Assembly (NCBI RefSeq): GCF_028416635.1
Contig: NZ_CP114013.1
Location: 2,046,001-2,110,000, forward strand
Origin: Baekduia alba
Lineage (GTDB): Bacteria > Actinomycetota > Thermoleophilia > Solirubrobacterales > Solirubrobacteraceae
DNA: 64,000 bases
Reading direction: 5' to 3'
Made by a program: the position numbers and the translations under genes. Of the stretch, positions 3,459-43,277 are shown one piece after another. The notes beneath the pieces were generated by a model. That model ran no database searches. It saw nothing but the letters and a program-made list of their open reading frames with translations, and was not told where the DNA came from. Position 1 is the stretch's first letter, and the number at the start of each line of letters is the position of its first letter.

Positions 3459-3560
3459 GCGACGGACGCTACACCTATTGTCAACGGTACACCCCACTGG
3501 CATGTCGATGATGACTTTGCGAGGTTCTTCCATTGGTGCAGCACGGCGTGCCGCCCTCGT

Positions 3561-3645
3561 CGAGCCATCAACAGAACGGATGGCCCGCGCGAAACTTCGA
3601 TTGGACGGGGTACCGGCGCGAACCTACGCTACGGCCACTACGCGA
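3561..3645 (+). promoter_or_regulatory. 85-bp repeated promoter element, copy 1
   Basis: This 85-bp stretch recurs at 12073-12157 with only five substitutions and no gaps. It contains TTGGAC (3601-3606) and TACGCT (3625-3630) separated by 18 bases, a plausible sigma-70 promoter reading toward the monooxygenase gene at 3760, and a direct repeat CTACGC spaced 14 bases around the putative -10. The last 30 bases are identical in both copies. A 25-codon open frame starting at 3580 runs through it but would begin upstream of the predicted transcript start, so I treat it as non-coding. The rest of the 300-base gap 3459-3759 shows nothing else clear. Confidence 0.7.
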
Positions 3646-3759
3646 GCTGTTCGCTGAGGTGCACGATCGAGTGGCCTGAGAACGCCCATGAGCCCTTCAG
3701 TGCGCGGCTGTCCGGCACGCGGCGACGCCACGCCGCGCCATTCGACGCACGAGGTGACG

Positions 3760-4944
3760 ATGACTTCAGACCAGACACTGGCCGACCGAGAGCCGGTAAG
3801 CAGCGACCAGATCCTCGCCAACGCGATCGCTCTCGGGCCGTTCGTCCGGAAGAACGTCGAGGAGATCGAAGGCGCCCGCACGCTCACCGCACCGATGGTG
3901 AAGGCGATGCACGACGCCGGCATCTTCCGCATGTCGATGCCGAGCGCGTGGGGTGGCCCCGAGCTCGATCCGCTGCGCCAGTTCGAGGTGATCGAAGCGC
4001 TCTCCGTGGCGGATGGATCGGTCGGCTGGTGCGCGTACATCAACTCGACGGGTGGGTACTTCACGTCGTTCCTGGAGGCCGACGTCGCGCGGGCGATGTA
4101 CCCGAGCCTCGACATCCCGACCGGCGGCCAGCACACGCCGGTGGGTCGTGCCGAGGTCGTGGACGGCGGCTACCGAATCAACGGCCGCTGGACGTTCGGC
4201 AGCGGGGTGAAGCACAGCGGGTGGATGGCCTGCGGCTGCATCGCGACGCGGGACGGCGAGCCGGTTCTCATGGAGGACGGCAAGCCACAGCGCCTGTCGG
4301 CGTTCGCCTCGGCTGACCAGCTGGACGTGATCGAGACGTGGAACTCGATGGGGCTGCGCGGCACCGGCAGCCATGACTACACGGTCACCGACCTGTTCGT
4401 GCCGACGGAGCGGACCTTCGACCTGTACAGCTCGCCCGTTCTGCGAACGACTCCGCTGTTTCAGCTGCGCACGATGTTCCTCTTCAACCATGCGGCGGTA
4501 GCCCTCGGCATCGCTCGCAACGCGGTGGACTCGTTCGCCGAGCTCACGCTCTCCAAGCGCACGAACTGGGGGCCGATGCACGAGCAGGACTACGCGCGCT
4601 CCGCGCTGGCGCGGGCGGACGGTGTGGTGCGCTCAGCTCGCGCGTACTGCATGGAGACGCTCGAGGACATCTACGGCACCCTCACCTTCGGCGGTGAGCT
4701 GAGCGTGGATCAGCGCGCGGGGTTCAGGCTGGCGATCACGCACGCCCACCGCGCCGCGGTGGAGGCGGTCGACGGAGTCTTCGCCGCCGCTGGCACGACT
4801 GCGGCGGTGAGGCTCCCGAGCGTGCTCGAGCGCTGCTTCCGCGACGTGCACGTGGCCAACCAGCACCTGATCGCGTCACCGAAGAGCTACAGCGAGATCG
4901 GCGGGATGCTGTTGGGTGCGGTTCCCGACGATCCCAACTACTGA
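3760..4944 (+). CDS. flavin-dependent monooxygenase of acyl-CoA dehydrogenase fold (HsaA/IacA-like)
   Basis: A 394-residue group D flavin monooxygenase. These share the acyl-CoA dehydrogenase fold but hydroxylate phenols or indoles with reduced flavin from a separate reductase. The N-terminal helical domain (FRMSMPSAWGGPELDPL, about residues 50-66), the beta domain (YRINGRWTFGSGVKHSGW, about 135-152; GLRGTGSHDYTV, about 200-211) and a C-terminal helical domain (VHVANQHL) are visible; the catalytic Glu of true acyl-CoA dehydrogenases is not seen. GAGGTG precedes the chosen ATG. It is the first gene after repeat copy 1 and probably opens the unit reaching MoeA. The flavin reductase at 2138 is a likely partner. 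Confidence 0.85.
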   Translation: MTSDQTLADREPVSSDQILANAIALGPFVRKNVEEIEGARTLTAPMVKAMHDAGIFRMSMPSAWGGPELDPLRQFEVIEALSVADGSVGWCAYINSTGGYFTSFLEADVARAMYPSLDIPTGGQHTPVGRAEVVDGGYRINGRWTFGSGVKHSGWMACGCIATRDGEPVLMEDGKPQRLSAFASADQLDVIETWNSMGLRGTGSHDYTVTDLFVPTERTFDLYSSPVLRTTPLFQLRTMFLFNHAAVALGIARNAVDSFAELTLSKRTNWGPMHEQDYARSALARADGVVRSARAYCMETLEDIYGTLTFGGELSVDQRAGFRLAITHAHRAAVEAVDGVFAAAGTTAAVRLPSVLERCFRDVHVANQHLIASPKSYSEIGGMLLGAVPDDPNY

Positions 4945-5060
4945 GTCGATCGGCGCTCTCAATGATGAAGATACGAGATCATGCCCTGAGCTCCGGAGTG
5001 GCGGCCGTGAAGCCGCGCCGGCAGCGACTCGTCGTCGTGAAGAGGGCCTGAGGGCTCACC

Positions 5061-5543
5061 GTGGCCAAGTCGATCGGTCCCGAGGTCCCCGCGGCGCTGG
5101 CCGAGCTCCTGGCGGACGACGAGCGTGCGCTCGGGATCATCCTCGCGCTGATCAGCGTCGACCGGCGCGGGTTCCCACACGTGGCCCTCGTGAGTCCCGG
5201 CGAGATCGCGCAGGTGGATGAGCGACGACTGCGCGTGGCGCTGCGCGTCGACGGGCGCGCCGTGGAGAACCTGCGCGCGCGCCCGGCGGCGACGCTCGTC
5301 ATGGTCGAGCCTGCGGGCTGCGCCTACCTGCTTCTGCGCGCGCGCGACCTGGAGCGCCGCCTTGCGCCCGCGCCGACCCTTCCCTTCTCCACGACCGTCG
5401 TCGAGCTGGAGCTGGAGGAGACGCGGATCGACGCGGAGGCGGGCGCCACGGTCGTCACGGGTGCCCGGTACGCCAGGGCGCTCGGCCGCGATGCGGAGCT
5501 GGCGGCGTGGCGAGCCACTCGGGAGGCGCTGTGCCGCGACTGA
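5061..5543 (+). CDS. pyridoxamine 5'-phosphate oxidase-like FMN-binding split-barrel protein
   Basis: A 160-residue split-barrel flavoprotein-like protein starting at GTG. The pattern GFPHVALVSPGEI followed by RLRVALRVDGRAVENLRARPAATLVMV is typical of the PNPOx-like family, where the barrel binds FMN, F420 or haem. True PNPOx residues for pyridoxal phosphate binding are not apparent, so it is not expected to make PLP. It lies 117 bases after the monooxygenase and its end overlaps the IPP isomerase gene. Possible roles are flavin reduction or flavin handling for the neighbouring flavoenzymes; this is inference from context. Confidence 0.72.
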   Translation: MAKSIGPEVPAALAELLADDERALGIILALISVDRRGFPHVALVSPGEIAQVDERRLRVALRVDGRAVENLRARPAATLVMVEPAGCAYLLLRARDLERRLAPAPTLPFSTTVVELELEETRIDAEAGATVVTGARYARALGRDAELAAWRATREALCRD

Positions 5544-6640
5544 CACCGGCTGTCGACGCACCATCGCCGACCTCCGCGCGCAAGTTGCAGCACCTCGAGT
5601 TCGCGCTCGCGGATGCACAGACGCAGCGGCCGTCGCCCTGGAGCGACATCGAGCTCGTGCATTGCGCGCTGCCCGAGCTGGCGCTGGACGACGTCCACCT
5701 CGGCGTCACCGCCCTGGGCGCTCAGCTTGCGGCGCCGGTGGTCATCGCCGGCATGACCGGAGGCCATCCGCGCGCCGAGGAGCTCAACCGGCGCTTGGCT
5801 CGCGCCGCCCAGCGCCACGGCGTGGCCATGGGGGTCGGGAGCCAGCGCGCGGCGCTCGAGCGGCCGGAGCTCGCCGCGACCTACTCCGTCGCGCGAGAGG
5901 CGGCGCCCGACACCGTGCTGATCGCGAACCTCGGCATCGGCCAGGTGCTCCAGGCAGGCCCGGACGCGGAGCGCATGCTGCGGGCCTGCGTGGAGATGAT
6001 CGATGCCGACGCGATCGCGGTGCACCTCAACGCCACCGAGGAGGTCGTGCAACCTGAAGGCGACCACGACTTCGCCGGCGCGACGGCCGCTCTGGCGGCT
6101 GCCGCGCGCGCGCTGCACCCGCTGCCGGTGATCGCCAAGGAGACCGGCAGCGGATTGGCCCCGGGCGTCGTCGACCGGCTCGTCGAGGCTGGGATGAGCG
6201 CGCTCGACGTCGGCGGGCGGGGCGGCACGAGCTTCGCCGCCATCGAGGGCGCCCGCGCCGCGCAGATCGGCGACGACGTGCGCGCGCGCCTGGGCGATCT
6301 ACTGGCCGACTGGGGCATTCCGACGCCGGTCACCACGGCGACGGCAGCCCGCGGGGGCGTTCCCGTGATCGCCGCCGGCGGGGTGCGCACCGGCGTGGAT
6401 GCCGCCAAGGCGCTCGCCCTCGGAGCCACCATGGTGGGGGTCGGACAGCCGGTGCTGCAGGCCGCGGTTGAGGACCCGCACGGAGCGGAGCGCTGGTTGG
6501 AGGGGTTCCTCTTCGAGCTGCGCGCCACGATGTTCCTCACCGGCTCCTGCGATGTCGCGGCGCTGCGCCGTGCGCCCCGCGTCGTGCTCGGAGCCACGCG
6601 CCAGTGGCTCGATCAGCTCGAGGCGGCGGAAGGACGATGA
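5531..6640 (+). CDS. fni: type 2 isopentenyl-diphosphate delta-isomerase
   Basis: A 369-residue FMN-dependent TIM-barrel enzyme of the IDI-2 family, which interconverts IPP and DMAPP. Family blocks present are RKLQHLEFAL, VIAGMTGGHPRAEE, MGVGSQRA, VHLNATEEVVQPEGDHDF (about residues 164-181), and a KETGSGLAP stretch followed by DVGGRGGTSFA. In most IDI-2 enzymes the HLN block reads HLNxxQE; here the Gln is Glu (residue 170), an unusual change near the active site. GTG at 5531 is chosen because GGGAGG lies just upstream; a GTG at 5507 is the alternative. It overlaps the previous gene by 13 bases and the next (UbiX) by four. Its likely job here is to supply the dimethylallyl group for prenyl-FMN. 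Confidence 0.85.
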   Translation: MPRLTPAVDAPSPTSARKLQHLEFALADAQTQRPSPWSDIELVHCALPELALDDVHLGVTALGAQLAAPVVIAGMTGGHPRAEELNRRLARAAQRHGVAMGVGSQRAALERPELAATYSVAREAAPDTVLIANLGIGQVLQAGPDAERMLRACVEMIDADAIAVHLNATEEVVQPEGDHDFAGATAALAAAARALHPLPVIAKETGSGLAPGVVDRLVEAGMSALDVGGRGGTSFAAIEGARAAQIGDDVRARLGDLLADWGIPTPVTTATAARGGVPVIAAGGVRTGVDAAKALALGATMVGVGQPVLQAAVEDPHGAERWLEGFLFELRATMFLTGSCDVAALRRAPRVVLGATRQWLDQLEAAEGR

Positions 6641-7227
6641 TGGACACTCCCGAACGGTTCATCGTCGGGATCTCGGGCTCGACCGGCGCGGTCTACGGCG
6701 TGCGGCTGCTGGAGATCCTGAGCGAGCGCTTCCCCGAGATCGAAACGCATGCGATCGTGAGTCACGGCGCACGAGCGACGATCGAATACGAGCTCGGGCG
6801 GTCGGCCGAAGACGTGCTGGCGATGGCCTCCGTGGTGCATGACGACAACAACCTGGGCGCTGCGATCGCCAGCGGCACGTTCATCACCCGCGGCATGGTG
6901 GTCGCACCCTGTTCGATCAAGACGCTGGGCGCGTTGGCCACGTGCCGCAACGACAACCTCATCACGCGAGCGGGGGACGTGTGCCTCAAGGAGCGCCGGC
7001 GTCTGGTGCTCGTCGTGCGCGAGACGCCGCTGCACCTCGGTCATCTTCGGCTCATGACGACCGTGACGGAGTCCGGGGCGGTCGTGCTGCCGCCTTCGCC
7101 CGCGTTCTACCACCGGCCGCACACGATCGCCGATCTGGTCGATCACACCGTCGTGAAGATCCTCGACGTCTTCGGCCTGCACGTCTCCGATCTCATCGAT
7201 CGCTGGGAGGGGCTCGACCATGACTGA
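6637..7227 (+). CDS. ubiX: UbiX/Pad1-type flavin prenyltransferase
   Basis: A 196-residue flavin prenyltransferase. UbiX joins a dimethylallyl group to FMN N5 and C6 to make prenyl-FMN, the cofactor of UbiD decarboxylases. The N-terminus FIVGISGSTGAVYGVRLLEI is the family signature, followed by VAPCSIKTLGALATCRNDNL and LKERRRLVLVVRETPLH, which contain the phosphate- and flavin-binding residues. Start at the first of two adjacent ATGs, which overlaps the isomerase stop (ATGA). The pairing with an IPP isomerase directly upstream and a UbiD gene at 12174 is the strongest functional context in the island. Confidence 0.95.
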   Translation: MMDTPERFIVGISGSTGAVYGVRLLEILSERFPEIETHAIVSHGARATIEYELGRSAEDVLAMASVVHDDNNLGAAIASGTFITRGMVVAPCSIKTLGALATCRNDNLITRAGDVCLKERRRLVLVVRETPLHLGHLRLMTTVTESGAVVLPPSPAFYHRPHTIADLVDHTVVKILDVFGLHVSDLIDRWEGLDHD

Positions 7228-8875
7228 TGAAGCTGGAACAGGCGCGCAGCACAGGAGCAGCGCCATGAACTGTTGCGAGCAGGGCACGGAGACCAACGCC
7301 GCGCCGGGTGGCCTGCTCACCTGGCCCGTCACCACGTCGTCACCCGAGGCCCAGAGCGCCTTCGATCGGGGCATGGCGCTGGTGTACTCCTTCAACCACC
7401 CCGCCGCGGACCGCGAGTTCCGCGCCGCAGCGGAGCACGATGCCGGATGTGCGATGGCTTGGTGGGGGATCGCACACGTCAAGGGCCCCCACATCAACAT
7501 CCCGTCGGTGCCGCCGGCGCACGCACGTATCGCGTGTGAGGCGCTTGCCCGTGCACGAGCCCTTGCCGTCGACGCGACCCCGCTGGAAGCGGCGATGATC
7601 GAAGCGGAGAGCAGCCGCTTCGACGAGTCGGACTTCGCGGCGCCCAGACCTCCGCTGGAGGAGGCATACGCGCAGGCGATGCGCGCGTTGTGGCGCCGGT
7701 ACCCAAGCCATCCGGACATCGGCGCGATGTTCGCCGAGTCGCTGCTCAACCTGCATCCTTGGGATCGTTGGACCATCGACGGCGAGCCGATGTACGACAC
7801 ACCGGAGTCGATGGCGACGCTCGAGCGGGTGTTGGAGATGGAGCCCTCACACCCTGGGGCCAATCACTACTACGTCCACACCATGGAGTCCTCGCCCTAC
7901 CCCGAGAGGGCGCTCGCGGCGGCAGATCGACTGCGTGCCGGTCTCCCTTGCACCGCTCTGCGGACGGAGTCCGCACATCTGATGCACATGGCATCGCACA
8001 TCGACAACCGCCTCGGGCGCTGGGCGGACGGCATGCGGCAGAACCAGGCGGCGATCGCCGCCGACAAGACGTTCTTGAGCACCGCTGGTGACGTCGGGAC
8101 CTACGGTCTCTACGTCGTGCACTGCCATCACGTCCTGGCCTATGGCGCGATGATGCGCGGCCAGCGCGAGGCCGCGCTGGCGGCGAGTCGGGCGATGATC
8201 GCCGACCTCCCGGAGGGCCTGCTCGAGCAGGTCGCCCCGTTCGTCGACGGGTTCGTGACCTTGCCGATGAAGGTCATGATGCGCTTCGGCATGTGGGAGC
8301 AGATGCTCGAGGAGCCGGAGGCACTGGAGATCCTCCCTGTCTCCCGCGTCTTCCGGCTCGCGATGCGTGCCACGGCGCTCACCGTGCTCGACCGCCTACC
8401 CGAAGCACAACTCGAGCGCGCGGCCTTCCGGCGCGCCGCCGCCGCGTTGCCCGAGCGCACGCTCGTCGGGCGCAACCCGGCCGCGCTCGTCTTCGGCATC
8501 GCCGACAAGGTGCTGAAGGGTGAGATCGCGGCTCAGGAAGAGCGATTCGACGTGGCGATCACCTCCCTGGAGGAGGCTGTCGATCTTGAGTCACGACTCC
8601 GCTGGGCGGAGCCGCCCGACTGGATCCAACCGGTCAGGCACACGCTCGGTGCGGTGTTGATGCGGGCCGGAGAGCACGCCCGGGCCGAGCAGGCGTATCG
8701 GGAGGATCTGCAGCGTTACCCGGAGAACGTGTGGTCGCTGGTCGGGTTGTCGCGCGCCCTGCAGCTGCTGGGCCGTGGTGATGAAGCTGACCGCTGCGCG
8801 ACGCGGTCGAAGGCCGCCCAGGAGGCAGCAGACGTGACGATCGAGACCACATGCTTCTGTCAGCCGCCTGTGTGA
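7220..8875 (+). CDS. tetratricopeptide-repeat protein with Cys motifs at both ends
   Basis: A 551-residue soluble protein overlapping the UbiX stop by eight bases. It is helical, with several TPR-like units (for example AFDRGMALVYSFNHPAADRE, residues about 47-66, and the AEQAYREDLQRYPENVWSLV region near 490-510). The conserved block HPGANHYYVHTMESSPYPER is followed by HLMHMASHIDNRLG, so His residues are concentrated in the middle. The N-terminus carries MNCCEQ and the C-terminus TTCFCQPPV, which could bind a metal. No signal peptide or enzyme domain is seen. Homologous TPR proteins are known but I know of no assigned function; the operon position suggests a role tied to the UbiD or flavoenzyme system. 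Confidence 0.75.
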   Translation: MTDEAGTGAQHRSSAMNCCEQGTETNAAPGGLLTWPVTTSSPEAQSAFDRGMALVYSFNHPAADREFRAAAEHDAGCAMAWWGIAHVKGPHINIPSVPPAHARIACEALARARALAVDATPLEAAMIEAESSRFDESDFAAPRPPLEEAYAQAMRALWRRYPSHPDIGAMFAESLLNLHPWDRWTIDGEPMYDTPESMATLERVLEMEPSHPGANHYYVHTMESSPYPERALAAADRLRAGLPCTALRTESAHLMHMASHIDNRLGRWADGMRQNQAAIAADKTFLSTAGDVGTYGLYVVHCHHVLAYGAMMRGQREAALAASRAMIADLPEGLLEQVAPFVDGFVTLPMKVMMRFGMWEQMLEEPEALEILPVSRVFRLAMRATALTVLDRLPEAQLERAAFRRAAAALPERTLVGRNPAALVFGIADKVLKGEIAAQEERFDVAITSLEEAVDLESRLRWAEPPDWIQPVRHTLGAVLMRAGEHARAEQAYREDLQRYPENVWSLVGLSRALQLLGRGDEADRCATRSKAAQEAADVTIETTCFCQPPV

Positions 8876-8887
8876 CGGACGCATAAG

Positions 8888-9883
8888 ATGAGAGACCCTG
8901 AGCAGTCTGTCTCGTTGTACACGGAGCGCGCGAGCGATCAGCCAGAGGTGCACGAGGTTCGAGTCGAGGACGTGACGGAGGCGGCAGAGGGCGTGCTGTC
9001 GATCACGCTCCGCGCCGAAGAGCGCCGAACGCTCCCGGCGTGGACTCCGGGAGCACACATCGACGTCTTCTTGGCCAACGGTCTCGAGCGCCAGTACTCG
9101 CTGTGCGGTGATCCGGACGACAGGGAGCGTTGGCGGATCGGCGTCCTTCGCGAGCCCGAGAGCCGCGGCGGGTCGGAGTTCATCCATGCGTCGGTGGGTG
9201 CCGGGGACCGTCTGCGCGTCCGCGGTCCGCGCAACAACTTCCCTCTCGTCGCCGCGCATCGGTATGTCCTCGTCGCCGGAGGAATCGGGGTCACCCCGCT
9301 GCTGGCCATGGTCAAGGAGCTCGAGAAGCAGCAGGCGGAATGGCGTCTGCTGTACGGAGGACGCCGGCGCGACTCGATGGCGTTCTTGGGCGAGCTGCAG
9401 GAGTACGGCGAGCGAGTGGCGGTGCGGCCTGAGGAGGAACATGGGCTCCTCGATCTCGACGCGTGGCTGCTCCCACCCCAGACCGATACCGCGGTGTACT
9501 GCTGCGGCCCCGAGCCGTTGGTGCAGGCGGTCGAGTCGCGATGCGAGCGATGGGACCCGGGAAGCCTGCACGTCGAGCGTTTCCGTCCGCGTCCGGGTGC
9601 GCTGGACGGAGCCATGGAGACGTTCGAGGTGGTACTCGAGAAGTCTGGGTTGACGATCTGCGTCGGCGCCGACCAGACGATCGTCGAGGCCGCGGAGCTG
9701 GCTGGGGTGGAGGTCGACACGTCGTGCCGAGAGGGCACGTGCGGCACCTGCGAGACCGTGGTGCTCGACGGGATCCCGGACCATCGTGACTCCTGCCTCA
9801 TGGACGAGGAGAAGGCGACCAACACCATTATGATGGTGTGCTGCTCACGCTCGCGCAGCCCCCGGCTGGTGCTCGACCTCTGA
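8888..9883 (+). CDS. phthalate-dioxygenase-reductase-type flavin/[2Fe-2S] oxidoreductase
   Basis: A 331-residue NAD(P)H-dependent electron-transfer protein of the PDR/VanB type: an FMN-binding ferredoxin-reductase barrel (RQYSLCGD, about residues 68-75), an NAD-binding domain (GGIGVTPLLAM near 131-141; CCGPEPLVQAV near 205-215) and a C-terminal plant-type ferredoxin. Cluster cysteines are C280, C285, C288 and C318 (C-x4-C-x2-C-x29-C). Such reductases normally feed a Rieske oxygenase or an O-demethylase, but no Rieske oxygenase large subunit is in the window. It may instead reduce the Rieske ferredoxin at 21813, a monooxygenase, or the molybdoenzymes. It lies 12 bases after the TPR gene and four before moeA. 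Confidence 0.9.
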   Translation: MRDPEQSVSLYTERASDQPEVHEVRVEDVTEAAEGVLSITLRAEERRTLPAWTPGAHIDVFLANGLERQYSLCGDPDDRERWRIGVLREPESRGGSEFIHASVGAGDRLRVRGPRNNFPLVAAHRYVLVAGGIGVTPLLAMVKELEKQQAEWRLLYGGRRRDSMAFLGELQEYGERVAVRPEEEHGLLDLDAWLLPPQTDTAVYCCGPEPLVQAVESRCERWDPGSLHVERFRPRPGALDGAMETFEVVLEKSGLTICVGADQTIVEAAELAGVEVDTSCREGTCGTCETVVLDGIPDHRDSCLMDEEKATNTIMMVCCSRSRSPRLVLDL

Positions 9884-9887
9884 GCAA

Positions 9888-11072
9888 GTGATCTCCTACG
9901 ACGAAGCGACGTCGGCGATGCTCGCGCTGGCACGGCCCCTCGGGACGGAGCGCATCGACATCGACCGTGCGATCGGGCGCCGCCTCGCCGGCCCGCTGCG
10001 TGCGGCGGTGGACGCACCGCGCTGCCCGATCGCGGCGGTCGACGGGTACGCGATCGCCTCGGGGGCGAGAGGAGAGGGCCCGATGGTGCTGCGCGTCGTC
10101 GGCAGCTCGGCTCCGGGCTCGAAGCCGAGCGCGGACGTCACGGACGGGGAAGCGATCCGCATCCTCACCGGCGCGCCGGTGCCGGAAGGCGCCGAGTGGG
10201 TGGTCATGCAGGAGGACGTGTGCCGCCACCGGGACTCGATCGTCATCTCGCGGACTCCTGAGCGACGGCACATCCGGGAGCAAGCGTCTGACTTCCGGCA
10301 GGGCGATGAGCTCCTGCAGACGGGACGCCTTCTCGACGCCCGTGCCCTCGTCGTCGCGGCAGCGGCCGATCAAGCCGCCGTCGAGGTGTTCCGGCGCCCA
10401 CGCGTCAGCATCGTGGCCACCGGCAGCGAGCTCGTGAGTCCGGGGACGGCCGCCCGTTCGCGTCTGGCCGTGCCTGACAGCGTGTCGCTCGGCGTGGCCG
10501 CGCTGGCGGGGTGTTGGGATGGCGATGTCGTCGACCGGCGCAGGCTCCCGGACGATCTTGCCCGTCTGACCGCGGCCGCCGGCGATGCCCTGGGCGGGGC
10601 CGAGGTGGTGGTCGTGACCGGCGGCGCGTCCGTCGGCGACGTCGACCTCGCGAAGCCGATGTTCGTACCGCACGGATTGCGGCTCGTGTTCGCGAAGATC
10701 GCCAGCAAGCCCGGCAAGCCGGTTTGGATGGGACGAGCGCGGCGACGCATCGTGGTCGGACTTCCCGGCAACCCCAGCTCGGCGCTCGTGATGGCCCGGC
10801 TCTTCCTGGCGCCCTTGCTTCACGGGCTGGCCGGAGGCGATCCCTTCGCGGCGTTGCGCTGGAGACCGGCCCTGCTCCACTCGCCGCTGCCGGCTCCCGG
10901 ACCGTGGGACAGGTTCCATCGTGGCCGCATGGTCGGCGATTCGGTGTGTGCGCTGCCCAACCAGAGCTCGGGCAGCCAGCAGGCGCTGGCCGCGGCGGAC
11001 GTGCTGATCCGCCTTCGCGCGCACGCCCCTGCCGTTCCCGCGGGCGGACAGGTCGAGGTACTGGACTTCTGA
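9888..11072 (+). CDS. moeA: molybdopterin molybdenumtransferase MoeA
   Basis: A 394-residue MoeA protein, which inserts molybdate into adenylated molybdopterin in the last general step of Mo-cofactor synthesis. Family blocks: PIAAVDGYAI (about residues 47-56), ILTGAPVPEGAEWVVMQED, VSIVATGSELV, VVVTGGASVGDVDL (the MoCF-like loop), SKPGKPVWMG and GLPGNPSSALV. Start GTG at 9888. It closes unit A, immediately after the reductase gene, and most simply supports the two molybdopterin enzymes in unit B. The rest of the Mo-cofactor pathway is not in the window, so this is probably a dedicated extra copy. Confidence 0.93.
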   Translation: MISYDEATSAMLALARPLGTERIDIDRAIGRRLAGPLRAAVDAPRCPIAAVDGYAIASGARGEGPMVLRVVGSSAPGSKPSADVTDGEAIRILTGAPVPEGAEWVVMQEDVCRHRDSIVISRTPERRHIREQASDFRQGDELLQTGRLLDARALVVAAAADQAAVEVFRRPRVSIVATGSELVSPGTAARSRLAVPDSVSLGVAALAGCWDGDVVDRRRLPDDLARLTAAAGDALGGAEVVVVTGGASVGDVDLAKPMFVPHGLRLVFAKIASKPGKPVWMGRARRRIVVGLPGNPSSALVMARLFLAPLLHGLAGGDPFAALRWRPALLHSPLPAPGPWDRFHRGRMVGDSVCALPNQSSGSQQALAAADVLIRLRAHAPAVPAGGQVEVLDF

Positions 11073-11096
11073 GCCTGGCCGGCAGGCGACGCCGCC

Positions 11097-12047
11097 CTAG
11101 TCGAGTGCGTGCTGTTCTGAGTTCTCGGAGGTGAACAGCGGCACCTCGTCACCTGCTGCAGGCTTTCGCTCGTCGCCGTACACGATGGTCGGGTCGAGGA
11201 ACCAGGCGCATGGGCCGGTTGGCTCTCCGGTGTCGTCACGCCGTAGCGCGACAACATGCCGGGAAATGGAGTCGACCGTCTCGATGTCGCGACGCACGAG
11301 GCGTCCGGCCTGAAGCTCGGCATCGACAGCGGTCAGGGGCAGGAGCGCGAGGCCGAGCATGTGCACCACCATGCTCTTGGCCGCGTCGATGCTGTCCAGC
11401 TCGGTGATGGCGTCCGGCTCGACGCCGGCTCGCGCGAGGATCCGGCCGATCTCGTCCTCGAAGTTGGGAAGCATGATGATCGGCTCCGTGGCGAGGTCGT
11501 GGAGCTGGAGGACCGATCGTTGGGCGGCCGGATGGTCGGGGGCGAGCACGAGCACGAGCTCGTCGCGGTAGAGCGGCACGCTCGCGAGCTGTGGGTGGGT
11601 CGTGTCGCAGCCGAGCCCGAGCTGTGCGTCCCCGTTGAGCACGAGGCGGATGACGTCGGCGGGATCGCAGGTGCGCAGCGTGATCCGGACCGAGGGCCAG
11701 CGCCGCCTGAACCTCCACAGCATTGGTGGCAGCACGTACGTCGAGAGTGCCGGTGGGGTCGCGAGGGTGAGGTGCTCGGTCGTGCCGTCGTGGAGTCGAG
11801 CCACGTGTTGACGACCCGCCGCAAGCGTGTCCAGCGCTTGCTGGGCGTAGGGCAGGAACACCTCACCCGCGTCTGTCAGCCGGACGCCGCGAGCGGTGCG
11901 CACGAGGAGCTGCGTGCCGAGTTCAGTCTCAAGGCTCTTTATCCGCGCGGTCAAGGCGGGCTGAGAGATGTACAGCGCCTGAGCTGCGCGCGACACACTG
12001 CCGATGCGTGCCGCCTCGACAAAGCCCTCGATTCGATCGAAGACCAT
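11097..12047 (-). CDS. LysR-family transcriptional regulator of the island
   Basis: A 316-residue LysR-type regulator: HTH at residues 3-62 (FVEAARIGSVSRAAQALYIS, then QPALTARIKSLETELG) and a co-inducer-binding domain starting with HLTLATPPALSTYVLPPML. The ATG at 12047 is chosen because it gives the standard LysR N-terminus; an upstream GTG would add 17 unrelated residues. It is divergent from the UbiD gene with 126 bases between, holding the second copy of the repeated promoter element and a TAGC-N4-GCTA dyad (12061-12072). By the usual LysR arrangement it should control itself and the UbiD unit, and through the shared element probably also the unit starting at 3760. Confidence 0.9.
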   Translation of the reverse strand: MVFDRIEGFVEAARIGSVSRAAQALYISQPALTARIKSLETELGTQLLVRTARGVRLTDAGEVFLPYAQQALDTLAAGRQHVARLHDGTTEHLTLATPPALSTYVLPPMLWRFRRRWPSVRITLRTCDPADVIRLVLNGDAQLGLGCDTTHPQLASVPLYRDELVLVLAPDHPAAQRSVLQLHDLATEPIIMLPNFEDEIGRILARAGVEPDAITELDSIDAAKSMVVHMLGLALLPLTAVDAELQAGRLVRRDIETVDSISRHVVALRRDDTGEPTGPCAWFLDPTIVYGDERKPAAGDEVPLFTSENSEQHALD

Positions 12048-12072
12048 CTTGCGCGATTTATAGCACGCGCTA

Positions 12073-12157
12073 CGAGCCATCAAAAGAACGGATGGCACGC
12101 GTGAAAGTTCGATTGGACGGGTTACCGGCGCGAACCTACGCTACGGCCACTACGCGA
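12073..12157 (+). promoter_or_regulatory. 85-bp repeated promoter element, copy 2
   Basis: Second copy of the element at 3561-3645, 80 of 85 bases identical without gaps. The same hexamers TTGGAC (12113-12118) and TACGCT (12137-12142) are kept with an 18-base spacer, pointing at the UbiD gene that starts 17 bases after the element ends, with an AGGAGA ribosome-binding site at 12163-12168. A TAGC/GCTA dyad just upstream (12061-12072) is a possible LysR-binding site but is not in copy 1. Conservation of the spacer and flanks, not just the hexamers, suggests that a regulator reads this sequence. Confidence 0.7.
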
Positions 12158-12173
12158 ATCCAAGGAGAGATGG

Positions 12174-13694
12174 ATGGATGCGGAAGCGGCGGTAGCCACG
12201 CCGGAGAGGGGTCGGCTCGCAGGCTTTGACCTGCGGATGTGGATCGAGGAGCTGCGGAGGCTCGGCGAGCTCAGCGTCGTTCAAGGAGCGGACGCGGACC
12301 TCGAGGTCGGTGCGATCACCGACCTCAATGCCAAGATCCACGGGCCTGCTCTCCTGTTCGTCGACATCGGTGGGCACGAGGGACAGGGCCAGCTGCTGAC
12401 GTGCACGCTGTCGCGGGCTGCGCGCCTTGCGTCCGCCCTCGGCTTCGACCCGGGCATCGACGATCAGGCGCTGGTGGAGGAGCTTCGCGGCCGCCCTCGG
12501 CAGTGGCGCGAGGCCGCTCCGCGGTTTGAGCCCGTCGTCGTGACCGATGCGCCGATGTTCCAGAATCGGCTGTCGGGGACGGAGATCGACATGCGTCGTT
12601 TTCCCGCTCCGTTGTGGCATGAGGGCGATGGAGGGCGCTATCTCGGAACGGGCGGATCCATGATCACGCGCGATCCCGAGACCGGCATCGTCAACTGTGG
12701 CACTTATCGCATCTGCGTCCACGACGAGCGCCGTCTGGGCGTGTGTATCGAACCGTATAACCATGGTGCGATTCACCTGCAGAAATATCGTGAGCGGGGC
12801 GAGCCGTGCCCGGTCGCCATCACCTTCGGACACGGACCGCTCGTCTACATCGCGTCCTCGATGCCGCTCCCGTACGGCGTCTGCGAGCTCAACGTGATGG
12901 GCGCCATGGCAGAGGCGCCCATCGATGTCATCGAAGGGGAGCTGACCGGCCTGCCGATCCCGGCGTCGTCTGAGCTGGTGATCGAGGGTTGGATCAACCC
13001 TGGCGACGTCGACTTCGAGGGCCCGTTTGGTGAGTTCACCGGGTACTTCGCCGGCGGACGCGAGAAGAACCCTGTGATCCAGGTCGAGCGCGTCTACTTC
13101 CGTGACGACCCGATCGTCTACGGGTCGCTCACCGGCAAGCCGCCGTTCGACCACTCCTACTGGCGCTGTGCGATCGAGTCCTCGATGCTCGTCGACGAGC
13201 TCGCCGACGCCGGGATCCCCGACGTCAAGGGCGCCTGGAAGCACGAGGCGGGCTCCGCGAACTTCTTCACCGTCGTGGCGATCAAGCAGCGGTACGCCGG
13301 CCACGCGCAACAGGTCGGCGTGGCTTCGGCGCTCGTCGCCGGAGGCGCCTCGATGGGGCGCTACGTCGTCGTCGTCGACGAGGACGTCGACGTCATGGAT
13401 CTCGACGAGGTCGTCTGGTGCCTGTCGACGCGGACCGATCCCGCGCGGAGCATCCAGGTGCTCCGCGACACCCCGACGAACCCCATCGACCCGATGCTCG
13501 AGGACGCCGAGGCGTCGTGGACGGGATCGCGCGCCGTGATCAACGCCTGTCGTCCCTTCCACCGGCTCGACACGTTCAGCAAGGTCGTGAGCGTGAGCCC
13601 GGAGCTCGCCCAGCGCGTCCGTGCTCAGTGGGGCCGGCAGCTCGGGTGGCCGATGACGACGGCCGACATGTCGCGCAGCGACGAGCCGTCATGA
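12174..13694 (+). CDS. UbiD-family prenyl-FMN-dependent (de)carboxylase
   Basis: A 506-residue UbiD-family enzyme, which reversibly removes carboxyl groups from aromatic, heteroaromatic or alpha,beta-unsaturated acids using prenyl-FMN. The catalytic triad equivalent to Fdc1 Arg173/Glu277/Glu282 is visible: Arg179 in the GTYRICV block, and Glu282 and Glu287 in DFEGPFGEFTGY. Other family blocks are SSMPLPYGVCELN and VVDEDVDVMDLDEVVWCL. ATG at 12174 follows AGGAGA. It is first in unit B, directly after repeat copy 2. The substrate is unknown; neighbours argue for an aromatic acid. The cofactor would come from UbiX at 6637. Confidence 0.95.
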   Translation: MDAEAAVATPERGRLAGFDLRMWIEELRRLGELSVVQGADADLEVGAITDLNAKIHGPALLFVDIGGHEGQGQLLTCTLSRAARLASALGFDPGIDDQALVEELRGRPRQWREAAPRFEPVVVTDAPMFQNRLSGTEIDMRRFPAPLWHEGDGGRYLGTGGSMITRDPETGIVNCGTYRICVHDERRLGVCIEPYNHGAIHLQKYRERGEPCPVAITFGHGPLVYIASSMPLPYGVCELNVMGAMAEAPIDVIEGELTGLPIPASSELVIEGWINPGDVDFEGPFGEFTGYFAGGREKNPVIQVERVYFRDDPIVYGSLTGKPPFDHSYWRCAIESSMLVDELADAGIPDVKGAWKHEAGSANFFTVVAIKQRYAGHAQQVGVASALVAGGASMGRYVVVVDEDVDVMDLDEVVWCLSTRTDPARSIQVLRDTPTNPIDPMLEDAEASWTGSRAVINACRPFHRLDTFSKVVSVSPELAQRVRAQWGRQLGWPMTTADMSRSDEPS

Positions 13695-13757
13695 CCCGCG
13701 ACGGCATCGCTGTCCTGCGACGCGCACCCCGGCTCAGGCGGCTTGAGGGTCACACCC

Positions 13758-15296
13758 ATGATCATCGACGAATGGAGCATCGTGGCTGAGTCACGAACGG
13801 AGCTTCCGTACGCGGAACGTGTCGCGACGGTGCTCGCCGGACAGAGCGAGCCGCATCTGCTGACCGGTGAGCAATACCTCGAGACGCTTGCCGACGGTCG
13901 TCGTCTCATCGCACCGGACGGGACGGAGATCGAGAACGTCGCCGCCCATCCGGTGACGAGTGCCGCGGCGAGCACCTTCGCCGCGATCATGGACCAGCAG
14001 TTCGATCCACGGCTGCGCGAGGTCGTGACCTACGTCGATCCCGAGACCAACCGGCGCAAGAGCCGGGGTTGGCAGGTGCCGACGACTCGGCAGCACCTGT
14101 TCGCACGGCGCGAGCAGATCGGCGTCACGACGCGTCAGACGCTCGGGTTCTTCGGTCGCCCGCCCGACTACGGCCCCGCGCTGGCGCTGGGCTTCCTCGC
14201 GATCATCGACCGGGTGGAGAGCGAGAGCCCGGAGTTCGCGGAGAACATCCGCCGGTTCGTGCAGACCGCGGGCGAGCGCAACCTGCTGAGCACGGACCTC
14301 ATCGGTGACAACCAGAGCGATCATCGCGTGCCGCGCAACGACCGGCCGTCGACGCTTCGGGTGGTGGAGGAGCGATCCGACGGGATCGTGCTGCGCGGAA
14401 GCAAGAGCGCGGGCAGCTCCGGACCGTTGGCGCACATGTTCACGCTCACCACGAAGCTGGGTGAAGGACTCGGTCCCGAGGGAGCCATCTGGGCGGTCGT
14501 CCCCGTCAACAGCGACGGACTGTCGCTCGTCATGCGGGAACCGACGGTTTCGAGTGGTGCGTCGCGCGAAGACCATCCACTGAACGTCAACGGCGAGGAG
14601 ATGGATCAGATCGTCATCTTCGACGATGTCTTCCTGCCGCGGGAGTGCGTGTTCAACGTCGGGAACCTCGACCTCCTCCAGTTGCATCTCGACATCTGCG
14701 TGTTCGCCATGTGGCACATCCTCACGCGGCTGTCATACCGAGCGCAGATCTTCGCGGGGACCGCACAGGTGATCACCGAGATCCTGGGCCGAGAGAACGT
14801 TCCTGGTGTTCGCCGCGCCGTTGCCGACATCCAGTTGTACGCCGAGACGCTGAAGGCCTTCTCGATCGCGGCGATCACCGAGAGCCAGTCGTGGAACGGT
14901 GTCGAAGTCCCGAACCCCGGCATCGTCTCGGCCGGCCGCTTGCACTCGATCACGAACTACGAACGAGTCGTCTATCTGCTTCAGGACCTGTGTGGTCAGG
15001 GACTGATCTCCAGGTGGCCGGAGAAGGTCTGGGACCATCCGGAGTTCGGCCCAAGACTCGAAGCGTTCCTCCCGGGGGTTGGCGTCACGGCACGGGAGAA
15101 GAACAGGTTCTTCAACTTCGTCTATGACCTGACCGCGAGCGCCAACGCCCAACGCGTGGCGTTGTTCGAGAACGTCAACGCAGCGCCACCGGCCGCGGTC
15201 GCCGAGCTCGTGTACCGCAACCCGGAACGCGCGAAGTGGGCGCGCGTCGTTCGGGAGTTCGCCGGCATCCCTGCGGAGTCAGGAGCGAGAACGTGA
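13758..15296 (+). CDS. HpaB-type FADH2-dependent monooxygenase (4-hydroxyphenylacetate 3-monooxygenase family)
   Basis: A 512-residue protein of the HpaB/PvcC/TftD family, two-component flavin monooxygenases that ortho-hydroxylate phenols using FADH2 from a separate reductase. Family features are TGEQYLETLADGRRLI (N-terminus), the THP-like region RQHLFARREQIGVTTRQT, LIGDNQSDHR, and the C-terminal helical domain with RVVYLLQDLCGQGLISRWPE. ATG at 13758 has GAGGG eight bases upstream; a GTG at 13782 is an alternative start. It follows UbiD by 63 bases. The HpaC-like reductase encoded at 2138 on the other strand is the obvious electron source. Confidence 0.9.
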   Translation: MIIDEWSIVAESRTELPYAERVATVLAGQSEPHLLTGEQYLETLADGRRLIAPDGTEIENVAAHPVTSAAASTFAAIMDQQFDPRLREVVTYVDPETNRRKSRGWQVPTTRQHLFARREQIGVTTRQTLGFFGRPPDYGPALALGFLAIIDRVESESPEFAENIRRFVQTAGERNLLSTDLIGDNQSDHRVPRNDRPSTLRVVEERSDGIVLRGSKSAGSSGPLAHMFTLTTKLGEGLGPEGAIWAVVPVNSDGLSLVMREPTVSSGASREDHPLNVNGEEMDQIVIFDDVFLPRECVFNVGNLDLLQLHLDICVFAMWHILTRLSYRAQIFAGTAQVITEILGRENVPGVRRAVADIQLYAETLKAFSIAAITESQSWNGVEVPNPGIVSAGRLHSITNYERVVYLLQDLCGQGLISRWPEKVWDHPEFGPRLEAFLPGVGVTAREKNRFFNFVYDLTASANAQRVALFENVNAAPPAAVAELVYRNPERAKWARVVREFAGIPAESGART

Positions 15297-15535
15297 TGGA
15301 CCGCGATCAGTCGTGACGTGAGAACCATGCGGCGATGCATGGACGCGGGGCATCAGATGGTTCCGGCGGCTCGTCCGCTGGGAAGACTGATCAGACCAAC
15401 CCGCGATGCAACGTGACCCGTGCGGCTGGCCAAGGATGGTCAGCGGCGGCTCCTAGGGCCGGGACTCGGCCGTGATTTGAGCAAGCGTTGCGGCGCTCGA
15501 TGCCGCGCGCGATCAAGACCGTAGCGGAGGAAGAG

Positions 15536-16567
15536 ATGAACTTGTCAAGTGGGTTGAGGCGTTGGGCGGCGCCGGTCATGGGCGTGGTCGCTGCCGGATG
15601 TCTGTGCGGGTCGATGGCTGCCTGCGGCAGCAGCGGAACCGACGACAGCGCGGCATCGACGCAGAACAGCAGCGGCGGCAATCCCAAGTCGGCTCGGATC
15701 AGCGTGATCAAGGCGGCCGACGTGCCGATCTTCGACACCTACGTGAAGGCGTTCAAGGTGGGCTTCGCGCGAGAGGCGGGCCTGGCGCCGGACCAGCTCC
15801 ACATGGACGTCAAGAGCGCGCAGGGCGATGTCAACCTCCTCCAGAACCTGGCGCGAAACGCCGCACGCGACAGCAGCTACAACGCGTTCGAGGTGATCGG
15901 CACCTCGGGGGTGATCGGGTTGGCGAAGCTCGAGAAGACACGTCCGATCATCGGGATCGGGATGACCGATCCCGTCGGGGCCGGTGTGGCCAAGACGCTC
16001 GAGCGCCCGGGCGCGAACGTGACCGGGACGACATCGAGCATCCCCACGCCGTTCGTCGTGAAGTTCCTGGAAGGCATGAACCCCAAGCCGAAGACCATCG
16101 GAACCATCGGCGACCCGTCCTATGAGTCGTTCGCCGCCTTCGCGGACCGGTTCCGCGCAGCGCTCCCGCCGACCGGCATGAAGCTGGTCGAGGCCGGCGC
16201 CGCCGGCCCGGGCGACGTGGCCACGGCAGCGCGGTCGCTCGTCGATCGGGTCGACGTCATCGTGCTCGGCACCGACATCCTCACGACCGGCACGGGCCTG
16301 CCCGCGATCGCCGCGCAGGCGAAGGCACACAACGTGCCGCTCATCATCGCCGCGCCCGTCGATCCGCACACGCAGGGCGCGACCGCGGTCCTGGCGCCGT
16401 CCAACGAGCAGCTCGGAGAGATCGGGGGCAAGCAGGCGGCACGGATCTTCCTCGGCAAGGCCAAGGCCGCGACGACGCCGTTCTACGCCATCCCGCCGCA
16501 CGCCACGGTGGACCAGGCGGCAGCGAAGACGCTCGGCGTGAGCTTCAGCCCCGCGACGTTCGGCTGA
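15536..16567 (+). CDS. ABC transporter substrate-binding lipoprotein (PF04392/TrpX type)
   Basis: A 343-residue secreted lipoprotein: positive start, hydrophobic segment and a lipobox ending at Cys30 (GSMAAC), then a Ser/Gly/Asn linker. The mature part resembles the ABC_sub_bind family, two-lobed binding proteins that include the TrpX tryptophan/tyrosine importers (IKAADVPIFDTYVKAFKVGF; IGIGMTDPVGAGVAKTLERP; PLIIAAPVDPHTQGATAVLA). ATG at 15536 follows GGAGGAAGAG. A 240-base gap separates it from the HpaB-type gene, with no clear promoter seen. With the next two genes it forms a complete importer, presumably for the island's substrate. Confidence 0.88.
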   Translation: MNLSSGLRRWAAPVMGVVAAGCLCGSMAACGSSGTDDSAASTQNSSGGNPKSARISVIKAADVPIFDTYVKAFKVGFAREAGLAPDQLHMDVKSAQGDVNLLQNLARNAARDSSYNAFEVIGTSGVIGLAKLEKTRPIIGIGMTDPVGAGVAKTLERPGANVTGTTSSIPTPFVVKFLEGMNPKPKTIGTIGDPSYESFAAFADRFRAALPPTGMKLVEAGAAGPGDVATAARSLVDRVDVIVLGTDILTTGTGLPAIAAQAKAHNVPLIIAAPVDPHTQGATAVLAPSNEQLGEIGGKQAARIFLGKAKAATTPFYAIPPHATVDQAAAKTLGVSFSPATFG

Positions 16568-16582
16568 TTGGGGGCGTGGCAC

Positions 16583-17542
16583 ATGAACACGAGTAGTCTG
16601 CTGACCGACACGCTTGTCACCGGTCTGCCGTTCGTGCCGCTGGTGATGGGCGTGTACCTGGTCTTCCGCATCCGCAACGACTTCGACCTCACCGTCGATG
16701 GGTCGTTCGCGATGGGTGGCGCGGTGACGGGGACGGCGCTGCTCGCCGGCGACGGCGTCGGTGGGTCGATGCTGCTCGCCGTGCTCGCCGCCGGCGCGGC
16801 CGGTCTGTTCACCGCCGGTCTGCACATCCTGCTGCGCGTGCCGGTCATCCTGGCGGGCCTGGTCACGTCGATCGGGCTGTACAGCGTCAACCTGCACATC
16901 ATGCACGACCAGCCGGCGCTGTCGTTGACCTCGGTCAACACGCTGTTCAGCGGGTTCGCCGGCCTGTCGAGCGCGGCCGCAGACCGCGCGACCGTGCTCG
17001 TGACCCTGGCGTTCGCGCTCGCCGTGCTGGTGGCCATGGGGGTGTTCCTGCGTACCGAGATCGGACTCGCCCTTCGCATCTCGGGGGTCAACGCGCCCTT
17101 GGCGCGCAGCCAGGGCGTGAACGACCGCGCACTGCTGGCCCTGAGCCTGTTCATCGCCAACGCGCTGGCTGGGCTCAGTGGGGCGATCCTGGTGCAGGAG
17201 CAGGGCTTCGCGGACGTGAACATGGGTGTTGGATCGATGCTCCTGGGCGTCGGTGCGTTCCTCCTCGGCGAGCTGGTGACGCGGCCGGGCGGCTCGCAGC
17301 TCGTGCGGGCGATGGCAGCGGTCTTCATCGGGGCGCTCCTGTACCGGTTCATCCTGGTCTTCGCGCTGGAGGCGGGTCTCGCGGCGACCGACCTGAAGCT
17401 CGCCACCGCCCTCACGCTGATCATGGCGTTCGTGCTTCAGCGCGGGGTGCAGGCGGGGCTCGATTGGCGCGTCAGGCAGCGAGGTCGCGAGCTTCGCATG
17501 GCCCGAAGTGAGGCGCGAACCGAAGGACGCGCCCATGCTTGA
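16583..17542 (+). CDS. ABC transporter permease (BPD_transp_2 type)
   Basis: A 319-residue membrane protein with about eight hydrophobic segments, of the branched-chain-amino-acid/TrpY permease type. The stretch RNDFDLTVDGSFAMGGAVTG matches the N-terminal signature of permeases paired with PF04392 binding proteins, and LRISGVNAPLARSQGVNDRA is the cytoplasmic coupling loop. ATG at 16583 lies 15 bases after the binding-protein stop; a TTG at 16568 is possible but less likely. It overlaps the ATPase gene by eight bases. Confidence 0.88.
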   Translation: MNTSSLLTDTLVTGLPFVPLVMGVYLVFRIRNDFDLTVDGSFAMGGAVTGTALLAGDGVGGSMLLAVLAAGAAGLFTAGLHILLRVPVILAGLVTSIGLYSVNLHIMHDQPALSLTSVNTLFSGFAGLSSAAADRATVLVTLAFALAVLVAMGVFLRTEIGLALRISGVNAPLARSQGVNDRALLALSLFIANALAGLSGAILVQEQGFADVNMGVGSMLLGVGAFLLGELVTRPGGSQLVRAMAAVFIGALLYRFILVFALEAGLAATDLKLATALTLIMAFVLQRGVQAGLDWRVRQRGRELRMARSEARTEGRAHA

Positions 17543-18344
17543 GCTTCGCGACATCCACCTCGTGTACAACGCGGGGACGAGCAGTGAGGTCGAGGCGCTC
17601 AAGGGTCTTTCGCTCAGCATCCCTGCGGAAGAGTTCGTGACGGTGGTCGGATCCAACGGCGCGGGCAAGAGCTCGCTCGTGCAGATCATCTCCGGCGCGG
17701 CCTCGCCCTCAGCTGGGCGCGTCCTGATCAACGGCACCGACGTCACCGGCCAGCGGGAGTTCCGCCGAGCGCGGTCGATCGCGCGTGTGTTCGACAATCC
17801 GCACGCGGGAACGGCGACCGACCTCAGCATCGAGGACAACATGGCGCTCGCGTTGGCGCGCGGCCGTCGCCGCAACCTGGGCTTTGCGGTCAACAGCCGG
17901 CGACGGAAGCTGATGTCCGAGCGGCTGGCGATGCTGGGTCTGGGACTCGACTCGCGGCTGGCCACACGAGTCGCCCTGCTGTCGGCTGGCCAACGCCAGA
18001 GCCTGACGATGGTCATGGCAGGTTTGACTCAGCCCGAGGTGCTCCTGCTCGACGAGCACCTCGCAGCGCTCGACCCGAGGACTCAGGCCAAGGTGCTCGA
18101 CCTGACCGTGGCCGTGGCGCGCGAGCTGCGCTGCACGACGATCATGATCACGCACAACATGGAGCACGCGATCGCGGTCGGCGACCGTCTCATCGTGATG
18201 AGCCACGGTCAGGTGCAGGCCGAGTTCGCGGGGGAGGAGAAGCGCAGCTTGACGCCCCGTACGTTGATCCAGCACATCATCGAGGCAGGCGACGTCGTGA
18301 CCGACCGCATGGCGCTCGCGGGCATCGAGGGTGTTGGCGGGTGA
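17535..18344 (+). CDS. ABC transporter ATP-binding protein
   Basis: A 269-residue ATPase with Walker A GSNGAGKSSL (about residues 38-47), the signature LSAGQRQSLTMVMAGL and Walker B VLLLDEHLAALD, followed by the switch His in MIITHNMEHA. The start ATG overlaps the permease stop by eight bases. It powers the importer formed with the two preceding genes. Its stop is 33 bases before the first molybdoenzyme, so the whole set is likely one transcript. Confidence 0.93.
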   Translation: MLELRDIHLVYNAGTSSEVEALKGLSLSIPAEEFVTVVGSNGAGKSSLVQIISGAASPSAGRVLINGTDVTGQREFRRARSIARVFDNPHAGTATDLSIEDNMALALARGRRRNLGFAVNSRRRKLMSERLAMLGLGLDSRLATRVALLSAGQRQSLTMVMAGLTQPEVLLLDEHLAALDPRTQAKVLDLTVAVARELRCTTIMITHNMEHAIAVGDRLIVMSHGQVQAEFAGEEKRSLTPRTLIQHIIEAGDVVTDRMALAGIEGVGG

Positions 18345-18377
18345 TGTGTGCTGCTGACATGAAGCGAGCTCGGCGTC

Positions 18378-21799: not shown

Positions 21800-21812
21800 A
21801 CCGGAACTGCGC

Positions 21813-22157
21813 ATGAGATACGTTGTCTGTCAGAAAGACGATGTCGCCCCCGGCGAGATGCGGTCGGTGATGTTGGGCGGCCAGATCCGCGTGGTCTTGA
21901 TCAGGGATCGACGGGGCAACTACCGCGCGCTCCGCGACGCCTGCTCCCATCAGGGTGCGCTGCTGTCGGCGGGCCGCCTGGAGGCCATGGTGACCGACGG
22001 CTATGAGCCGGCGGTCGAGCAGGACGTGGTTCGTTGCCCTTGGCATGGCTTCGAGTTCGATGTCGAGAGCGGCCGCTGTCCGGCCGACCCCAACAAGGCT
22101 CGGGTGAAGTCGTATGCCGTCGAGGTCGACGGAGACGACGTGGTGATCGTGCGATGA
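21813..22157 (+). CDS. Rieske [2Fe-2S] ferredoxin
   Basis: A 114-residue single-domain Rieske protein. Cluster ligands are visible as C44-x-H46 (ACSHQGALL) and C75-x2-H78 (VRCPWHGFEF), with the longer than usual insertion (residues 50-73) between the two motifs. The ATG at 21813 gives the normal NirD/ferredoxin-type start. It lies 13 bases after the amidohydrolase gene and 36 before the second molybdoenzyme, so it may pass electrons from the reductase at 8888 to one of these enzymes. It is too small to be an oxygenase subunit. Confidence 0.9.
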   Translation: MRYVVCQKDDVAPGEMRSVMLGGQIRVVLIRDRRGNYRALRDACSHQGALLSAGRLEAMVTDGYEPAVEQDVVRCPWHGFEFDVESGRCPADPNKARVKSYAVEVDGDDVVIVR

Positions 22158-22193
22158 CTGGAGTGACCCGCCGGCGGCGCTGGTCAGATAGGC

Positions 22194-24545: not shown

Positions 24546-24569
24546 CCAGCCCGTTCAGGCTGGCGCCGG
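24535..24569. terminator. bidirectional hairpin between convergent operons
   Basis: CCGGCGCC (24535-24542) and GGCGCCGG (24562-24569) form a perfect 8-bp stem around a 19-base loop that includes both stop codons. It can terminate transcripts arriving from both sides. Confidence 0.5.
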
Positions 24570-43045: not shown

Positions 43046-43277
43046 GGACGCACCTCGGGATCACCGAACCGGCCTGTCGGCATGCGTCGAGGAGCATGTT
43101 GAGGAGTCCTTGGACGTGTTGTCGCAGAACAGCCGGCCCAGCCACACGGGAAGGCTGCGGGACGCGAGATGGCCCGCGCGGCTGCGGCTGGCGCAGTCAT
43201 GTCGAGAAGCGCTGACCGGCTCCGCTCATGAGATGAAAGGCTGCGAGGGGCGCGGCCGACGACACCAGGAGACCACG

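Follow-up and report, generated by a model that had tools for sequence, protein, structure and literature searches.

A near-identical 85-bp element ahead of two gene sets in Baekduia alba suggests joint control of cofactor supply and client enzymes by a LysR-type regulator

The nah/sal genes have a two-operon arrangement. Control of several operons of a gene cluster by one LysR-type transcriptional regulator (LTTR) is well known (PMC5603801; here and below, cited papers are quoted from the portions available to us). The primary binding site of an LTTR, T-N11-A, is usually centred near -65 and a second site, for activation, near -35 (PMC5603801), while an extended consensus reads CTATA-n9-TATAG and regulator and target genes are divergent (PMC5002191). 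Here, we describe a stretch of 64,000 nucleotides from Baekduia alba (contig NZ_CP114013.1, positions 2,046,001 to 2,110,000; "the window", to which all coordinates refer), in which an 85-bp element occurs twice. Each copy precedes a gene set on the plus strand, and copy 2 lies between lysR and ubiD genes. The PnpR regulon for para-nitrophenol degradation in Pseudomonas sp. WBC-3 resembles this locus in having one LTTR gene in the cluster and several operons; mutation of the regulatory binding site (RBS) abolished three promoters there and a fourth promoter was independent of its RBS (PMC5603801). The available part of that account describes shared sites but no near-identical 85-bp block, and substrate and genes are unlike those of B. 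alba (PMC5603801). NahR, NagR and DntR act at a divergent dual promoter, where the LTTR switches on catabolic genes while keeping its own gene repressed, a situation to which we liken our proposal for copy 2 (PMC3180648). The promoters of these related systems are identical from the binding site to the -10 region, yet they reside in different strains, whereas the near-identical copies described here share one genome and lie 8.5 kb apart (PMC3180648).

With regard to gene content, the hmf cluster for furandicarboxylate in Pseudomonas umsongensis GO16 combines, as here, a UbiD-type decarboxylase and UbiX, a molybdoenzyme and a cofactor-insertion protein, and a LysR gene, but the molybdoenzymes here are of the BisC type and not HmfA, and a type 2 isomerase is present in addition (PMC12064950). 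According to its annotation, a cluster on plasmid 2 of Aromatoleum aromaticum EbN1 likewise has idi near ubiX, UbiD-family decarboxylases and an ABC transporter. It differs in its IclR regulator, its CoA transferases and a UbiD that is about 42% identical, and none of its 16 features shown is a molybdoenzyme. What seems less usual in B. alba is that a near-identical 85-bp unit stands twice in one cluster and joins a cofactor set to a client set. In the literature searched, mostly by titles and the beginnings of abstracts, we recognised no description of this two-copy cofactor/client arrangement.

The initial annotation of the window had reported copies 1 and 2 (3561-3645 and 12073-12157) as identical at 80 of 85 positions without gaps, and base-by-base comparison gave the same result, both copies being on the plus strand. 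The differences fall at element positions 12, 25, 30, 35 and 50, positions 51-85 are all identical, and outside both edges identity is at background from the first base on. No third copy exists on either strand of the window, in which the next best 85-base match reaches 42/85. The genome, one contig of 5,863,246 bases rated 95.94% complete, was then searched as that annotation had recommended. Copy 2 itself (E 2e-38) and copy 1 (E 9e-32) were returned and no further copy, the remaining matches to copy 2 being five stretches of 14-22 bases each with E 0.12 or worse. The search of relatives that had been proposed along with it yielded no element copy in 60 related genomes. Short matches of 19-29 bases (E 0.007-0.1) were all that 24 of these 60 genomes (own genome excluded) contained, and they were rejected as element copies: on reading by eye, 18 of the 28 fetched loci fall within one conserved reading frame with the peptide TYDYGHYG, which we take to be glycyl-tRNA synthetase, and others within pentapeptide-like repeats and further open frames. 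One 24-base match (L008) was not assignable.

The element is thus real, far beyond chance, and it is not a generic repeat; hundreds of copies unrelated to these genes would have spoken for the latter, and two copies per 5.86 Mb were found. A mobile or other repeat, such as a miniature inverted-repeat transposable element, an attachment site or a repeat flanking an 8.4-kb segment, might be considered with 8.4 kb lying between two direct repeats, but the two copies in 5.86 Mb and their absence from the 60 relatives speak against it. Moreover, the ends do not form inverted repeats (5 and 4 of the first 20 bases), the flanking tens of bases are free of a target duplication, and no Rfam match at gathering score was obtained in 3300-12400. 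We regard this explanation as extremely improbable.

Inside the element, positions 4-24 are occupied by GCCATC-N9-GATGGC, a perfect dyad of 6+6 bases around a 9-base spacer; its arms are identical in both copies, the sole difference being in the spacer. The T-N11-A box of LTTR promoters, which in most cases is an imperfect dyad with such a spacer, is thereby present in both. TTGGAC-N18-TACGCT, to which the initial annotation had drawn attention, occurs in both copies at element positions 41-46 and 65-70. The centre of the dyad lies 27 bp before the first base of TTGGAC, which would place it at -63 provided that transcription starts at the predicted position 7 bases past TACGCT. Genome-wide, the exact dyad is found at two places, both of them the element copies; with at most one mismatch there are 37 places, compared to 6 for a reversed-pattern control. 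When the copies were subjected to dinucleotide shuffling, such a dyad appeared anywhere in 88/5000 (copy 1) and 78/5000 (copy 2) shuffles and within 3 bases of its actual place in 9/5000 and 10/5000, respectively. A search of both strands of the 64-kb window for TTGGAY-N18-TAnnnT returned the two element copies only. A second dyad with a spacer of 9 bases was not clearly recognisable in the element; the activation site has no fixed motif according to the part of the source at hand (PMC5603801).

The adjacent LysR protein carries an N-terminal HTH_1 domain and a LysR_substrate domain, both over curated cut-offs. Its longest open reading frame (from 12098) overlaps the element and the plausible start is the ATG at 12047. 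With this start, lysR on the minus strand is divergent from ubiD on the plus strand, as expected of an LTTR gene and its target, and copy 2 is wholly inside the 126-bp gap between them, filling 85 of the 126 bases. A TATAAA hexamer on the minus strand, beside copy 2, resembles a -10 region for lysR and is absent at copy 1. Copy 2 may therefore be the parent, with LysR restraining its own expression there. Alternatively, the copies may be a shared promoter the regulator of which is not the adjacent LysR but, for example, the product of the second LysR gene present at 897-1850 or an unlinked regulator, or they may be two constitutive promoters. Dyads with a 9-base spacer are not exclusive to LysR proteins; the gap between lysR and ubiD is, however, where an LTTR site usually lies (PMC5002191), the predicted position of the dyad would fit the LTTR rule (PMC5603801), and nothing else in the window resembles the element, no copy being near the second LysR gene. 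Constitutive promoters would have no need of an identical dyad at the expected -63, and the hexamers are far from the sigma-70 consensus. The different dyad letters at the promoters of LysR homologues, described below, count in favor of such an alternative, which we nevertheless consider unlikely.

Homologues of the LysR protein were sought at E <=1e-40 in 396 genomes sampled in the phylum. They were present in 36 other genomes, none of them of the same order, with 38-45% identity and a best match of about 45%. Among the 29 loci that were fetched (L038-L066), 27 carry TTGGAY, in the orientation that reads away from lysR, no more than 250 bp upstream of this gene. TAnnnT follows 18 bases past TTGGAY in 24 of the 27, and ATA-N9-TAT is centred exactly 29 bases before it, again in 24 of the 27. 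L046 and L059, both from a second family, have TTGGAC and TACGCT as in the element and, 29 bases before the hexamer, dyads of the form ATA-N9-AAT or ATA-N9-GAT. This shared layout indicates that a dyad followed by TTGGAY and TAnnnT characterises this LysR group. For a weight matrix of 90 columns, 18 non-redundant promoters of the homologues were used. Its columns around the hexamer, starting 5 bases ahead of it and reaching 30 bases past its first base, placed copies 1 and 2 at ranks 52 and 11 of 127,930. At one of the homologue loci, L053, a malate synthase gene (PF01274 2e-96) lies on the side of the divergent promoter, which is strongly conserved among the homologues.

Several points weigh against control of both copies by the adjacent LysR. 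TTGGAC and TACGCT each have 3/6 letters of the sigma-70 consensus, and a scan with this consensus found no promoter in the region of either copy. A poor fit would suit an activator-dependent promoter, though it is no proof of a promoter, and it is solely from the LysR homologues that the two motifs gain weight as promoter hexamers. These homologue loci were anchored on TTGGAY after TTGGAC was known from the element, and 27 of the 29, all from one family, are not independent of each other. Furthermore, the dyad core in B. alba is ATC-N9-GAT at 27 bases from the hexamer and not ATA-N9-TAT at 29, and the spacing between TTGGAC and TACGCT in the second family is 19 and not 18. Over all 90 columns the weight matrix did not single out copies 1 and 2 (ranks 1817 and 1320 of 127,822); neither did its downstream part alone (30,127 and 13,934) nor its upstream part alone (41,864 and 54,928). 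Finally, the lysR/ubiD pair was not found in the other genomes searched, which thus offered no orthologous clusters in which to follow the conservation of the element.

For the same reason, youth and constraint of the two copies are inseparable. This bears on the claim of the initial annotation that length and conservation of the element go beyond a promoter, which holds insofar as the element appears to be an operator plus a promoter, while the high identity may also reflect a recent duplication. Since the identity extends over spacer bases, beyond the needs of an LTTR promoter, the copies are probably also young. It might even be argued that identity means nothing but youth and that a recent segmental duplication left a second copy with little or no regulatory effect. 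The 94% identity in spacers and motifs alike would be accounted for in this way, and the five differences are without significant pattern, neither their location outside dyad arms and hexamers (0.18) nor their confinement to the first 50 bases (0.065) being significant. Yet the edges hug the functional unit, lying 3 bases before the dyad and about 9 bases from the expected start on, and dyad arms and hexamers are intact in both copies, in the right orientation and before mutually dependent gene sets. We judge a duplication of this kind to be very unlikely. Shared LysR control is favored by the predicted dyad position, by edges that lie tight around the putative operator and promoter and by a location ahead of mutually dependent sets.

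The mutual dependence of the two sets is evident from their gene content (Table 1). Plus-strand gene runs follow both copies, as had been annotated initially: gene set 1 spans 3760-11072, its end meeting lysR tail to tail, and gene set 2, from ubiD to the second molybdoenzyme, spans 12174-24545. From strand and spacing we infer that each is one operon. The genome has two genes with the Flavoprotein domain (PF02441), and the one that is not ubiX carries a DFP domain (CoaBC type). The sole UbiX is thus encoded in set 1 and its sole UbiD client in set 2, which provides a functional reason for common control. In addition, idi2 is the only type 2 isomerase gene over cut-off in the genome (type 1 was not searched for). 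At 5507-7227 this only type 2 isopentenyl-diphosphate isomerase gene adjoins the only UbiX gene, an adjacency pointing to a dedicated supply of prenyl donor for prenylated flavin mononucleotide (FMN). MoeA is encoded twice in the genome, the second gene being outside set 1. The HsaA-like monooxygenase gene might alternatively start at an in-frame ATG at 3688.

Table 1. Coordinates of the element copies, their motifs and the genes of the lysR region in the window
Feature	Position	Strand	Basis or remark
Element copy 1, putative operator-promoter before operon 1	3561..3645	+	80/85 match with copy 2; 1 of 2 genome copies
Dyad GCCATC-N9-GATGGC (T-N11-A LTTR box), copy 1, predicted primary LysR site	3564..3584	+	sequence
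TTGGAC-N18-TACGCT, copy 1	3601..3630 (3601-3606, 3625-3630)	+	start expected near 3637
HsaA-like, acyl-CoA-dehydrogenase-fold flavin monooxygenase	3760..4944	+	NF045629 4e-49, below cut-off
Small protein, weakly PNPOx-like	5061..5543	+	PF01243 3e-4, below cut-off; GC by codon position
idi2, type 2 isopentenyl-diphosphate isomerase	5507..6640	+	TIGR02151 2e-102, over cut-off
ubiX, flavin prenyltransferase	6604..7227	+	TIGR00421 7e-63, over cut-off
TPR-repeat protein	7220..8875	+	profile match
Ferredoxin-NAD reductase	8888..9883	+	PF00111, PF00175
moeA, molybdenum cofactor insertion	9888..11072	+	profile match
lysR, LTTR of 316 amino acids, presumed regulator of both copies	11097..12047	-	PF00126 3e-21, PF03466 2e-42 (scanned with longer open reading frame start)
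TATAAA, putative -10-like hexamer for lysR, 9 bases before lysR ATG	12057..12062	-	comparison of both minus strands
Element copy 2, putative operator-promoter between lysR and ubiD	12073..12157	+	80/85 match with copy 1; 1 of 2 genome copies
Dyad GCCATC-N9-GATGGC (T-N11-A LTTR box), copy 2, predicted primary LysR site	12076..12096	+	sequence
TTGGAC-N18-TACGCT, copy 2	12113..12142 (12113-12118, 12137-12142)	+	start expected near 12149
ubiD-family decarboxylase, genome's only one	12174..13694	+	PF01977 5e-65
HpaB-like flavin monooxygenase	13743..15296	+	PF11794 4e-54
ABC transporter (binding protein, permease, ATPase)	15488..18344	+	TrpX-like, below cut-off
BisC-family molybdoenzyme 1	18378..20699	+	TIGR00509 2e-275, below cut-off
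Amidohydrolase-2 family protein	20696..21799	+	PF04909 5e-35
Rieske ferredoxin	21741..22157	+	PF00355 6e-21
BisC-family molybdoenzyme 2	22194..24545	+	TIGR00509 4e-291, below cut-off

A search for the cluster in other genomes was without success. No UbiD match at E 1e-100 was found in 231 other genomes of the order, nor any in a first scan of the genome collection, and 396 genomes contained one HpaB match at E 1e-60 besides that of B. alba, with 33% identity. BisC relatives were examined at 83 loci, namely the best 80 of 370 relatives plus L083, L164 and L165; within the fetched flanks and at E 1e-15, ubiD was present in 3/83 and lysR in 3/83, never both. On plasmids, LysR relatives were at most 34% identical among the ten matches listed, of at least 5000 records, and the best UbiD relative had 48% identity. 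The best relative of BisC-family molybdoenzyme 1 is 62% identical and belongs to a Rhizobium metagenome-assembled genome. The G+C content of 12001-24000, the region of gene set 2, is 0.654-0.695 per 2 kb, compared to values of up to 0.766 later in the window. The lower G+C content and the lack of a UbiD match at E 1e-100 in the order make a foreign origin of gene set 2 possible. Structure searches by sequence retrieved general family relatives alone and indicated no substrate; an aromatic or heteroaromatic acid is our guess from the enzyme families.

Further genes were noted in the window. A gene for an HpaI-type aldolase (2673-3533, minus strand) is divergent from copy 1. The gene at 24555-26993 (minus strand) encodes an 812-amino-acid protein in which FAD_binding_3 and Oxidored_FMN domains are joined, and acyl-CoA dehydrogenase, enoyl-CoA hydratase and thiolase genes lie near it. 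At 42502-43635 (minus strand), an open frame of 377 amino acids is without Pfam match at 1e-5.

Of the readings considered, the proposal of the initial annotation, namely that the divergent LysR has a common site at both operons, is best supported, given the dyad, the promoters of the homologues and the interdependence of the operons. We consider it likely that a duplicated operator-promoter lets this LysR control the supply of cofactors and the client enzymes together. Each 85-bp copy would then be a complete LTTR operator plus promoter, in which the T-N11-A primary site near -63 is followed by a weaker site for activation, presumably one that overlaps TTGGAC, by TACGCT and by the first few bases of the transcript. 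LysR would bind both copies and activate both operons at once in concert with an inducer, for which an aromatic or heteroaromatic compound, either substrate or intermediate, is the probable candidate. Operon 1 would supply prenylated FMN by way of Idi2 and UbiX, molybdenum cofactor by way of MoeA, and a monooxygenase with a reductase; operon 2 would supply uptake and the client enzymes, i.e. UbiD, two molybdoenzymes and the HpaB-like oxygenase. In addition, lysR is probably repressed by its own product at copy 2, where the likely lysR promoter lies near the dyad, and copy 1 is most likely the duplicate of copy 2.

We see about even chances that, in a catabolic pathway dependent on two costly cofactors, prenylated FMN and molybdenum cofactor, a separate cofactor-supply operon with its own prenyl-donor isomerase was joined to the client regulon by copying the whole 85-bp LysR cassette, such that cofactor and apoenzyme rise on one signal. 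Judging by the shared element, the pathway may comprise the two operons and lysR, which would aid the hunt for its substrate, and the pair of copies offers ready reporters. If the proposal is true, the locus would be a clean and testable case of regulon growth by copying of a complete operator-promoter, as opposed to a site evolved from scratch, and an example of how an induced supply of cofactors is matched to the enzymes.

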